In this document: positions 2,926 to 43,083 of the stretch, piece after piece
How the letters are laid out: every line of letters starts with the position of its first letter
Position numbering within the stretch: the first letter of the stretch is position 1
Assembly (NCBI GenBank): GCA_002721275.1
Contig: PBJZ01000002.1
Span: forward strand, 24,529 to 69,762
Source: Flavobacteriaceae bacterium
GTDB taxonomy: Bacteria; Bacteroidota; Bacteroidia; Flavobacteriales; Flavobacteriaceae
Reading direction: 5' to 3'
DNA length: 45,234 bases
The notes under the pieces: generated by a model
Databases searched by the model: none
Told to the model about the DNA's origin: nothing
What the model saw: the letters and a program-made list of their open reading frames with translations, nothing else
Program-made: the position numbers and the translations under genes

Positions 2926-3065
2926 ATCATAAAAAGAATAATCTTAAAACTTCCTTTGAAATATTCTTTTTGATTTTTTCTATCTTGTGCATAAGAATAA
3001 ACTAGTATTAGTGTAAATATTATTACGAATGCTAATGCGAAAACAAGTTGTCCTGAAGTAAACAT
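2877..3065 (-). CDS. Small two-TM membrane protein, unknown function
   Basis: 62 aa, two hydrophobic segments (LVFALAFVIIFTLILVYSY; IILFMICLTISLFLI); same strand as and overlapping the following gene. Confidence 0.6.
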   Translation of the reverse strand: MFTSGQLVFALAFVIIFTLILVYSYAQDRKNQKEYFKGSFKIILFMICLTISLFLIKKYTQN

Positions 3066-3126
3066 TATTTTTTAATTTAAAATTAATTAAACCATAAGTA
3101 AATTAACCTATAATCTAACATAAATA

Positions 3127-3525
3127 ATGATCGAAAAACCAATAAATTTTGTAAAAGTATTTCATAAGGCATTTAATATTGATATGTCAGACACTCCCAC
3201 GGTAAAAGTTCCAAGGGATATAATTAAACTGAGACACAAATTAATGTATGAGGAGAACAAAGAGTATTATGAAGCTGCTATGAATAACGATTTAATTGAA
3301 GTTGCAGATGCTTTGGGTGATATGTTATATATTCTATGTGGTACAATTATAACTCACGGTATGCAACATAAGATAGAGGAGGTTTTTGATGCCATACAGG
3401 AAAGTAATATGAGCAAACTAGATATAAATGGTAAACCTATTTATCGCGAAGATGGAAAAGTATTGAAAGGACCCAATTATTTCAAACCTAATATTAAAGA
3501 TATACTGAAAGATTATAATAATTAA
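3127..3525 (+). CDS. MazG/PRA-PH-like nucleotide pyrophosphohydrolase
   Basis: VKVFHKAF, EENKEYYEA ... EVADALGDMLYILCGTI resembles the EExxE...ExxD motif of the all-alpha NTP pyrophosphatase superfamily. Confidence 0.8.
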   Translation: MIEKPINFVKVFHKAFNIDMSDTPTVKVPRDIIKLRHKLMYEENKEYYEAAMNNDLIEVADALGDMLYILCGTIITHGMQHKIEEVFDAIQESNMSKLDINGKPIYREDGKVLKGPNYFKPNIKDILKDYNN

Positions 3526-4568
3526 ACTTCACTTCTCCAACCAAACTTATCATCCGATCTGTTGTATTGAATGTCGGTTATAATTTTTTTTATTTTTTCT
3601 GCGTAAGATTCTTTTACTGGTTTAATATCATAATCAATATTTTTATAACCAAAACCTGAAATTGAGAGAATCACAACCGCAGTTCCAGCTCCGAAAATTT
3701 CTTTTAAAGATTTATTTTTTACTGCTGCAACTAATTCATCCACAGTAAAAGGCCTGACCTCAACATCTATTCCAATATCTTTAGCTATTTGTATCACACT
3801 TTTTCTCGTTATTCCATCAAGAATCCTATCATTTGTGGGAGCAGTGATTAATTTATTTTCTATTCTAAAAAAAATATTCATTGTTCCAGCTTCTTCAATA
3901 AATTTGTGTTCATTTGAGTCAGTCCAAATTATTTGATGATACCCCTTATTTTGAGCTATTGAAGTAGGGTAAAAAGAACTGCCATAATTCCCTGCAGCTT
4001 TTGCAAATCCTACTCCACCACTTGAAGCTCTACTATATTTCTCAGAAATTAAAACGTTGAATTTGGATTCATTATAATAAGATTTAGCAGGTGAACAAAT
4101 GATTATGAACTTGTATTCACTTGAGGGCGAAGCTTGAACTGTAGCCTGACTTGCGAAAACGAAAGGTCTTATGTAAAGTGAGTTTCCATTTCCTGGTTTA
4201 ACCCAGTCAGAGTCAATTGAAACTAATTTTTTTAAACCGTTCATAAAAATATCTTTAGGAATTTCAGGAATTTTCATTCTTTTACAAGATTTATTCAATC
4301 TTTCGAAATTATCCTCAGGTCTAAATAACCATACCTTATTATTATGGTCTTTGTATGCTTTCATGCCTTCAAAAATTGCTTGACCATAATGAAGTGCACT
4401 TGTGGATGGGTCAATTGAGATATTTTGATAGGGAATAATTTTTGGATCAACCCAGTTGCCATCCAAAAAATCACAAATGAACATATGATCAGTAAAAGTT
4501 TCTCCAAAGGATAAATTTTCAAAGTCTACCTTGTTAAATTTTGGATTATCATTTTTTATAATTTCCAC
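3522..4568 (-). CDS. ilvE: Branched-chain amino acid aminotransferase
   Basis: QAIFEGMKAYKD, FGFAKAAGNYGSS-type segment, EEAGTMNIFF, GITRKSVIQIA; ~350 aa. Confidence 0.95.
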   Translation of the reverse strand: MEIIKNDNPKFNKVDFENLSFGETFTDHMFICDFLDGNWVDPKIIPYQNISIDPSTSALHYGQAIFEGMKAYKDHNNKVWLFRPEDNFERLNKSCKRMKIPEIPKDIFMNGLKKLVSIDSDWVKPGNGNSLYIRPFVFASQATVQASPSSEYKFIIICSPAKSYYNESKFNVLISEKYSRASSGGVGFAKAAGNYGSSFYPTSIAQNKGYHQIIWTDSNEHKFIEEAGTMNIFFRIENKLITAPTNDRILDGITRKSVIQIAKDIGIDVEVRPFTVDELVAAVKNKSLKEIFGAGTAVVILSISGFGYKNIDYDIKPVKESYAEKIKKIITDIQYNRSDDKFGWRSEV

Positions 4569-40264: not shown

Positions 40265-40283
40265 ATATCAATAAAAACAACAA

Positions 40284-40313
40284 AACAACCTTAAATTAAG
40301 GTTGTTTTTTTTT
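40284..40313 (+). terminator. Intrinsic terminator downstream of dnaK
   Basis: AACAACCTTAA-A-TTAAGGTTGTT inverted repeat running into a T9 tract. Confidence 0.85.
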
Positions 40314-40737: not shown

Positions 40738-42108
40738 ATGAAAAGTGTAATAATATGTGACATGGAAGGTGTTATTGAAAATCTAAATAAAGATGCAGAA
40801 AAACTTTTTGGTTATAGTAATTCGGAACTGATTGGAAAAAAAAGAGTCTCAATTTTCTCTGAAGGAGAAATAGTTCTTCAAAATGTTTTAATGTGGTTAA
40901 AAAGTGCAAATGCTAACGGATTTCATGAGACTAAAACAAATTTCATAAGGAAAGATGGTACAAAGTTTGCAGCAAAAATCAGAATAACACCAAACTTTTC
41001 AAATGGTAAAAATAAGCCTCAAACTGGCTATTGTGGTATGACTGAACCAATTGAAGAAATAATTGACGTCCCTATATCATTTACAACAAAGATTATCAAG
41101 GGTGTCGCAATAACAAGAGCTGGTTTTGGTTCAGCATCAATATTACCCATATTCGCTGTTGCTGCATTTTATGCAGGGAAAGGCGATTCTATATTTAGTG
41201 TATTTAGTTTAATTTTAACTGTAGCCGGTATTTTATCATTACAATTATTTTCAAACTTGTATAATGATTATTTTGATGTTAAAGATGGAACAGATGGATT
41301 AAATGAGGAATATTTTAATGTAGGTTTGAATGATAAACTCTTAGAAGGAGCGCAAGTTTCTGGTGGGAGTAGGGCAATAGAGCTAGGCCTTACAAACCTT
41401 GAAAAAACAAAATCTCTTGGAAATAAAATGTTAATACTAGGTCTTATTTTTTTGGTCTCTGTGGTATCATTATCCTACTACAATACCGGATCACTAAACA
41501 ATACTAAATATATTACAATAATTGCCCTTTTAGGTGGTCTTTTGGGATATTTTTACACCGCATCACCAATTAAACTTGTGTCTAGATATGGACTTGGTGA
41601 GCTAGCAATATTTTTAACTTTTGGCCCTTTATTAACTTTAGGTTCTGGGTACGCAATATCTGTTAATACAATTGAGTTTTTATCTACAGAATTTCTAAAT
41701 CTTATTTTACTAGGTATTCCTACTGGATTGTTAACAACTAACATCCTATTCATTAATCAATTTCCAGATTATAAGTCTGACAAAATTGCAAAAAAAAATA
41801 ACCTTGTTGTATTGTTTGGTAAAAAAGCTTCCAGATGGGGATATCTTTTATTTTTGATTTGCACATTTTCTTTTATGTACTTTTTTACAAGTATTTTAGA
41901 TCAAGAAATAGTGAACTTTTCTTATAATGGCTACATGATATCTAATGGATTATTATTATTATTGGGTCTTTCGATCTTTTTTCATTTATTTAAAAATTAT
42001 AATTCCAGAGATTTGATTAAATCAAACATAAATACAATATATTTTCAAATGATATTTACCATTGTATATATTCTATTATTAAACCCTTTTTACTTAAATT
42101 ACTGGTAA
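40738..42108 (+). CDS. PAS domain fused to MenA/UbiA-family prenyltransferase
   Basis: N-terminal PAS (IICDMEGVIENLNKDAEKLFGYSNSELIGKKRVSIFS ... FIRKDGTKFAAKIRITP); C-terminal UbiA fold with NLYNDYFDVKDGTDG and NQFPDYKSDKIAKKNNLVVLFGKK. Confidence 0.88.
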   Translation: MKSVIICDMEGVIENLNKDAEKLFGYSNSELIGKKRVSIFSEGEIVLQNVLMWLKSANANGFHETKTNFIRKDGTKFAAKIRITPNFSNGKNKPQTGYCGMTEPIEEIIDVPISFTTKIIKGVAITRAGFGSASILPIFAVAAFYAGKGDSIFSVFSLILTVAGILSLQLFSNLYNDYFDVKDGTDGLNEEYFNVGLNDKLLEGAQVSGGSRAIELGLTNLEKTKSLGNKMLILGLIFLVSVVSLSYYNTGSLNNTKYITIIALLGGLLGYFYTASPIKLVSRYGLGELAIFLTFGPLLTLGSGYAISVNTIEFLSTEFLNLILLGIPTGLLTTNILFINQFPDYKSDKIAKKNNLVVLFGKKASRWGYLLFLICTFSFMYFFTSILDQEIVNFSYNGYMISNGLLLLLGLSIFFHLFKNYNSRDLIKSNINTIYFQMIFTIVYILLLNPFYLNYW

Positions 42109-42165: not shown

Positions 42166-43083
42166 ATGTTTTTAAAATACAGCGATAGTAGATTTGATAA
42201 GTTTGGATATTATCTTCTTGGCTCATTAGTAATTATAATATTCAACTTCATAGGCCAAATACCCTTAACTATAGCATTTGCAAGTAGCCTTGTTGATTCA
42301 AATATCGAAATCAATCCAGAAATGAATCCGATTGATTTATTAAAAGTAATTCCATCTAATTTGCGTTTATTTTTAATGTTATTTCCTGCTGCTTTTAGTT
42401 TTATTGGGGTTTGGTTGGTTTCCAAAAAGATACATGATAGAAAAGTAACCAATTATTTTACAAGTAGAAATAGAATAGATTTCAGTAGAATTTTATTTTC
42501 TTTTACACTGTGGACTGCAACAATGGTTTTTTTTATTTTCTTAGATTTTTTTATTCACCCTGAAAATTACGAGTTAAATTTCAAACCTGTTCCTTTTTTA
42601 ATTTTATTTTTCATTACTATGTTTTTTATGCCATTTGCAACGACCCTTGAAGAGTTTATTTTCAGAGGTTACCTAATGAAAGGTTTTGGAAATTTATTTA
42701 GAAATAATTTCATTCCATTGATTTTTACATCATTTATCTTTGGAATTGTTCATATATCAAACCCTGAAGTATCTGAATTAGGATATGGAACAATGTTTTT
42801 TTATATAGGAACAGGATTTTTCTTAGGAATTATTACTTTGCTTGATGAGGGTACTGAATTAGCTTTGGGTTGGCACGCTGCAAACAACATAGTTGCGTCT
42901 TTACTAGTTACTACCGATTGGACTGTATTACAAACGAATGCAGTTTTAAAGGATATAACTGAACCAAGCATGGATAGTGAGGTATTAATTAACTTACTGA
43001 TTTTATACCCGCTACTTATTTTTATTTTTCAAAAAAAATACAAATGGAAGGATGCCTTTACAAAGCTTACATTAAAATTTTAA
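42166..43083 (+). CDS. CPBP (CAAX/Abi) family intramembrane metalloprotease
   Basis: TLEEFIFRGYLMKGFG, FIFGIVHISN, LGWHAANNIVASL. Confidence 0.92.
   Translation: MFLKYSDSRFDKFGYYLLGSLVIIIFNFIGQIPLTIAFASSLVDSNIEINPEMNPIDLLKVIPSNLRLFLMLFPAAFSFIGVWLVSKKIHDRKVTNYFTSRNRIDFSRILFSFTLWTATMVFFIFLDFFIHPENYELNFKPVPFLILFFITMFFMPFATTLEEFIFRGYLMKGFGNLFRNNFIPLIFTSFIFGIVHISNPEVSELGYGTMFFYIGTGFFLGIITLLDEGTELALGWHAANNIVASLLVTTDWTVLQTNAVLKDITEPSMDSEVLINLLILYPLLIFIFQKKYKWKDAFTKLTLKF

Follow-up and report, generated by a model that had tools for sequence, protein, structure and literature searches.

A conserved PAS-UbiA fusion of marine Flavobacteriales as a candidate prenyltransferase for an unrecognised respiratory quinone supply

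Introduction

PAS domains that respond to quinones are described for sensor proteins with histidine kinase output. In ArcB, two PAS cysteines are involved and quinones act as their direct oxidants or reductants (PMC11620690), and in EvgS, like ArcB a protein of Escherichia coli, cysteines of the PAS region are reported to respond to the quinone pool (PMC8174306). On the side of quinone supply, a survey of 26,264 bacterial genomes encountered many lineages lacking any known quinone pathway and suggested that further quinones may await discovery (PMC13386864). Nitrospirota provide the precedent: a lineage without canonical pathways, they proved to have a new quinone, methyl-plastoquinone (PMC12324825, PMC13386864).

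Such a case appears to exist among marine Flavobacteriales, where complete quinone-using respiratory complexes, UbiE/MenG and a polyprenyl-diphosphate synthase are combined with no known head-group pathway and with one candidate prenyltransferase that tracks the pathway loss, so that lipid analysis could address the question directly. The candidate, here called PAS-UbiA, is encoded in the window, by which we mean the whole stretch of 45,234 nucleotides that was analysed. Like ArcB and EvgS it couples a PAS domain to a pair of cysteines, redox-active there and conserved here, with a link to quinones; unlike them it has its PAS domain fused to a prenyltransferase rather than acting through a histidine kinase. 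Our literature search found no paper on a PAS-UbiA fusion and none on the quinones of these Flavobacteriales.

Results

A PAS domain is fused to a UbiA-type prenyltransferase

The PAS-UbiA gene (40738..42108, stop codon included; like all window features named here, on the + strand) encodes 456 aa in an uninterrupted ORF with an ATG start. Its N-terminal part (residues 1-105; 40738..41052) matches Pfam PAS_9 (PF13426; E=1.4e-9, 38.6 bits against a cut-off of 27, residues 3-92) and NCBIfam sensory_box (TIGR00229; 1.6e-11, 44.4 bits against 22.9, residues 4-91). A UbiA-superfamily membrane prenyltransferase domain follows at residues 115-453 (41080..42096) and matches Pfam UbiA (PF01040; E=4.9e-16, 59.2 bits against 34.2, with the best stretch at 231-385). 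The AlphaFold2 model computed from a 52-row alignment (mean pLDDT 87.7, pTM 0.83) places a PAS fold in residues 3-104, with strands at 3-8, 12-16, 63-70, 76-86 and 97-104 and helices at 18-24, 28-31, 37-40 and 43-60, followed by a helical UbiA bundle whose helices span residues 115-453. Comparison with the PDB by Foldseek returned 3lyx as the best match of the PAS half (rmsd 1.2-1.6 A, TMt about 0.8) and, for the catalytic half, the UbiA-fold structures 4tq4/4tq5, UBIAD1 (8djk) and DGGGP synthase (6m31/7bpu). PAS domains and UbiA-fold enzymes were the two top-ranking classes among the solved structures retrieved. Prediction confidence is good for both folds, and each has counterparts among solved structures. 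The preliminary description had read this single ORF as a PAS fold of about 105 residues joined to a UbiA prenyltransferase, an assignment that Pfam, NCBIfam, AlphaFold2 and Foldseek all confirm. The two Asp-rich motifs likewise lie where it had placed them, NDYFD at residues 176-180 (41263..41277) and NQFPDYKSD at residues 340-348 (41755..41781); their key residues, N176, D177 and D180 in the first and N340, D344 and D348 in the second, are invariant among relatives, and the active site is intact.

A scan of a genome collection gave at least 80 loci, the first 67 or so of which encode the fusion, and together with a further genome search it yielded 64 distinct full-length proteins for alignment. 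Because at least 64 distinct full-length fusions occur in independent genomes (39-86% identity to the window protein over the aligned stretch), the fusion is neither a product of chance nor of mis-assembly. It is old, and homologues were found in marine Flavobacteriales, Saprospirales, Ignavibacteria and Kapabacteria; in an order-wide sample of Flavobacteriales the family is present in 28 of 398 genomes, some copies being fragments at contig ends. None of the 64 aligned full-length members is without the PAS domain. Calculated over all pairs of these proteins, mean identity amounts to 67.5% for the PAS part and 52.4% for the catalytic part, and the PAS domain is the more conserved half in 99.5% of pairs. 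Being present in all full-length members and evolving more slowly than the catalytic domain, the PAS region is neither dispensable in evolution nor unconserved, and together with two invariant cysteines this supports the earlier idea of a sensor acting in cis on the enzyme.

These cysteines, C7 and C99, form the only conserved cysteine columns of the whole protein, and both fall within the PAS domain. Cys7 (codon 40756..40758), part of CDMEG, is the same residue in 64/64 full-length homologues, and Cys99 (codon 41032..41034), part of GYCG, in 63/63 homologues readable there. In the model, C7 is located on strand 3-8 and C99 on strand 97-104; the corresponding strands are adjacent in the usual PAS sheet. 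A heme PAS domain is recognised by a conserved axial His and a LOV domain by its cysteine motif. Across the alignment, residues 1-105 contain no conserved His of the kind expected for a FixL/DosH-type heme PAS, and no LOV cysteine motif was seen. The invariant cysteine pair is the strongest clue to the hypothesised sensing mechanism.

PAS-UbiA is distinct from MenA

Against the MenA model TIGR00751 the window protein scores 50.7 bits, half of the curated cut-off of 102.15, compared with 241.7 bits for MenA of a congener (G004); canonical Flavobacteriales MenA genes are far above this cut-off. In a maximum-likelihood tree the MenA clade, which includes E. coli MenA, and the PAS-UbiA clade are separate, each with 100/100 support; among the groups included, MenA lies closer to PAS-UbiA than UbiA, COX10 and the other UbiA groups do. 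MenA, the nearest characterised family by profile scores and tree, shares with it the UbiA fold and the N-D-x-x-D and N-x-x-x-D-x-x-x-D motifs, whereas PAS-UbiA stands apart by its own clade, its low score, the fused PAS domain and its occurrence mostly in genomes without men genes. Judged by sequence comparison, PAS-UbiA founds a subfamily of its own among the membrane aromatic prenyltransferases, one that is conserved and distinct from MenA. In the tree it is most closely joined by UbiA proteins without a PAS domain, which come from Betaproteobacteria, Heimdallarchaeota and a few further lineages. The nearest relatives of the catalytic domain, UbiA-fold proteins of Betaproteobacteria (Rhodocyclaceae, Methylotenera) and Heimdallarchaeota (L101-L113), have GGSR and FINQFPDY in common with it; in contrast to PAS-UbiA, the betaproteobacterial proteins carry no added PAS domain, and those of Heimdallarchaeota have another N-terminal domain instead of the PAS domain. 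The gene contexts of both groups gave no clue to a pathway.

The window genome (G000) is ~83% complete, and our local searches covered 1.54 Mb of it. In this genome MenB and MenD are absent, and MqnA/MqnD of the futalosine pathway (PF02621) gave no match. With the men operon of G004 as the query, neither MenD nor MenE was found, MenC was represented by a weak 25% match and MenB by a generic enoyl-CoA hydratase; overall, MenC and MenE have only weak generic matches. The TrpE-type protein of the window genome is by score not an isochorismate synthase. A search for a second, PAS-less menA, as the preliminary description had proposed, found none: the only other UbiA-fold gene detected in the window genome is of the COX10 (protoheme IX farnesyltransferase) type and lies beside cytochrome oxidase genes.

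Directly upstream of the fusion, a hotdog-fold thioesterase (TIGR00369; 40317..40736, with the likely start at ATG 40317 and a mechanical ORF from TTG 40302) ends 1 base before the PAS-UbiA start codon. It fits the general TIGR00369 family, scores far short of the cut-offs for MenI and EntH and is a conserved neighbour of the fusion in near relatives only. Congener G004, whose men operon is normal and which has no PAS-UbiA, carries a 73% identical thioesterase next to dnaK; since the dnaK-thioesterase order is thus kept without the fusion, the thioesterase does not count as evidence that MenI and MenA are paired here. A strong terminator-like hairpin with a T run (40282..40313) separates dnaK from the thioesterase and stops only a few bases short of the probable thioesterase start codon, suggesting that the thioesterase and the fusion form a unit separate from dnaK. 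On the other side, a CPBP/Rce1-like membrane protease (42166..43083) is the downstream neighbour of the fusion in 46 related loci. Assigning a pathway by neighbours was not successful, the thioesterase and the CPBP protease adjoining the fusion in near relatives only; across distant lineages we found no partner gene conserved beside PAS-UbiA.

The preliminary description had proposed a redox-controlled MenA operating in a normal menaquinone pathway, with a MenI-like thioesterase upstream to supply the preceding step. MenA models are indeed among the best family matches and a thioesterase does precede the gene. However, the protein falls below the MenA cut-off and outside the MenA clade, the genome is without MenB, MenD, MqnA/D and convincing MenC/MenE, and the thioesterase, far below the MenI models, is also present in the congener that has no fusion. 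This model is already largely refuted, and we consider it very improbable.

Carriage of the fusion tracks the loss of menaquinone pathways

Within the window genus, men genes and the fusion are mutually exclusive. PAS-UbiA is present and MenB and MenD are absent in G000, G001, G002, G003 and G006; the two genomes without PAS-UbiA, G004 and G005 (74% complete), have MenD, and G004 also has MenA and MenB. None of the seven genomes (G000-G006) contains MqnA/D. Among Flavobacteriales genomes at least 80% complete, both menaquinone pathways are absent in 14 of 20 carriers versus 1 of 39 non-carriers, a pathway being present in the remaining 6 and 38, respectively. The corresponding Fisher tests (p=3.8e-8, and 9.2e-5 at a completeness of at least 90%) ignore shared ancestry and are descriptive only. 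Both pathways are likewise lacking in family f6 and in genus g109 of family f11, and other carriers of f11 have MqnA/D. Carriers without MqnA/D (e.g., G141, G146, G138 and G205) show one strong UbiA match fewer than carriers with MqnA/D.

The association has exceptions in several lineages. Six Flavobacteriales carriers have MqnA/D and a carrier from Saprospirales (G100) has MenA, MenB and MenD, so PAS-UbiA is not always the sole quinone prenyltransferase. In Ignavibacteria and Kapabacteria, MenB is absent; PF02621 matches of intermediate strength occur in G102, G103 and G107, and a MenA over the cut-off in G104. Two further assignments were considered and rejected: the MqnP of the futalosine pathway, given that the window genome lacks the MqnA/MqnD match (PF02621) seen in some other carriers, and the UbiA of the ubiquinone pathway, of which only UbiE and polyprenyl-diphosphate synthase match well in the window genome.

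Carriers retain quinone-using machinery

The window genome encodes Na+-NQR in an nqrABCDEF operon (NqrA, NqrB and NqrF over their cut-offs) and SDH with a b558-type cytochrome, in addition to the cytochrome oxidase genes beside COX10. Homologues of a long-chain polyprenyl-diphosphate synthase and of UbiE/MenG are over their cut-offs as well, and UbiE/MenG was found in most carriers tested. The UbiE/MenG gene of the window genome is located outside the window (G000:C19:51500-52228). Its product is 47% identical to that of G004 against an orthologue median of 69%, which places it at the 6th percentile and may hint at a changed substrate. Queries with E. coli UbiB, C, D, H, I, F, X, T, U and V produced no match at 1e-3 in the window genome, and UbiG gave a weak partial match only. 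Where UbiC, UbiD and UbiX are concerned, the window genome thereby differs from the methyl-plastoquinone pathway of Nitrospirota and its related ubiquinone route. Its UbiE homologue matches MpqE below the cut-off, and the NCBIfam matches of the fusion include no Mpq prenyltransferase model. A gene-content comparison of the window genome with G004 (1.54 Mb and 1.06 Mb) returned 45 synteny-based candidates with no evident quinone pathway among them, and no head-group enzyme was identified in the window genome. Homogentisate was considered as the head group on account of a homogentisate-dioxygenase-like ORF noticed by eye near the gene in Kapabacteria, and was set aside as a simple motif scan of the window genome returned no HPD or HGO candidate. 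With quinone-using complexes present and no known head-group pathway seen, the cells appear to use a quinone of unrecognised supply.

One way to account for this combination is salvage, in which DHNA or a similar naphthoate from other organisms would be prenylated by PAS-UbiA and methylated by MenG to ordinary menaquinone, and the PAS domain might monitor either the redox state or how much substrate is available. DHNA-dependent growth is known in other bacteria, and the retention of MenG without the upstream pathway, the small genomes of about 1.6 Mb and the proximity of PAS-UbiA to MenA relative to the other UbiA groups would all fit. Yet PAS-UbiA is separate from MenA in the tree, carriers come from several orders and habitats, and salvage seems needless in the several genomes that encode, besides the fusion, all of the futalosine or the Men pathway. 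On balance, we regard salvage to ordinary menaquinone as a possible but doubtful explanation.

Such coexistence could instead point to a non-respiratory prenylated aromatic, such as an antioxidant or a pigment, as the product, with the quinone made by something else. At some Flavobacteriales loci the fusion has neighbours that are unusual for quinone genes: a cupredoxin protein, an SDR, a flavin-reductase-like protein and a MerR regulator that binds B12. Against this, searches of the window genome and of several carriers lacking menaquinone pathways found no UbiA besides the fusion and the COX10 type, these carriers keep quinone-using complexes and UbiE/MenG, and carriage is strongly associated with the loss of both pathways. 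We regard a non-respiratory product as rather unlikely.

Discussion

Since the fusion occurs mainly in marine bacteria that have quinone-dependent respiration and lack both known menaquinone pathways, it probably helps to make or salvage a respiratory quinone. The reading we prefer, and to which we give roughly even chances, is that PAS-UbiA is the prenyltransferase behind the respiratory quinone, acts on a head group that is scavenged or of unrecognised origin, and is controlled by a cysteine-based redox or quinone switch in its PAS domain; substrate, product and sensing mechanism are what we infer here. PAS-UbiA would attach the polyprenyl tail to the head group in bacteria whose Men and futalosine pathways have disappeared or are disappearing. 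This head group would be scavenged or made by a route not yet recognised, and methylation of the prenylated ring would fall to the retained UbiE/MenG. The cytosolic PAS domain would most likely sense the quinone pool or the cellular redox state via its two invariant cysteines and set the activity of the enzyme, much as the cysteines in the PAS domain of ArcB control a kinase. In such a simple feedback loop the PAS domain would read the quinone pool and set the enzyme that fills it. If true, a quinone-type prenyltransferase with its own fused sensor would subject the quinone pool to feedback of an unusual and direct kind. As a conserved new subfamily, PAS-UbiA is a promising starting point in the search for a quinone supply that has gone unrecognised, consistent with the remark on further quinones in the genome survey (PMC13386864).

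Several further loci deserve mention. In Heimdallarchaeota, the UbiA-fold proteins of L101 (5545-6873) and L103 (5536-6885), and similar ones of L109, L111 and L113, begin with a ~150-aa domain whose PNPOx-like (flavin-type) match is weak, possibly a second sensor or redox fusion to a UbiA enzyme. At L138 (G103:C44:3800-7200) two UbiA-like ORFs of 301 and 355 aa are adjacent, the second of which seems to be without the usual Asp-rich motifs. A broken PAS-UbiA gene with stops and a frame change is found at G150:C1:259297-260564 in a genome that has MqnA/D. In some Flavobacteriales a cupredoxin-domain protein adjoins PAS-UbiA (L072, 7407-8129; L076, 4514-5419), joined in L076 to a fasciclin domain. 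Only a few genes away from PAS-UbiA, the latter locus also encodes a MerR regulator that contains a B12-binding domain (2958-3827, - strand), a type of regulator often linked to light response.
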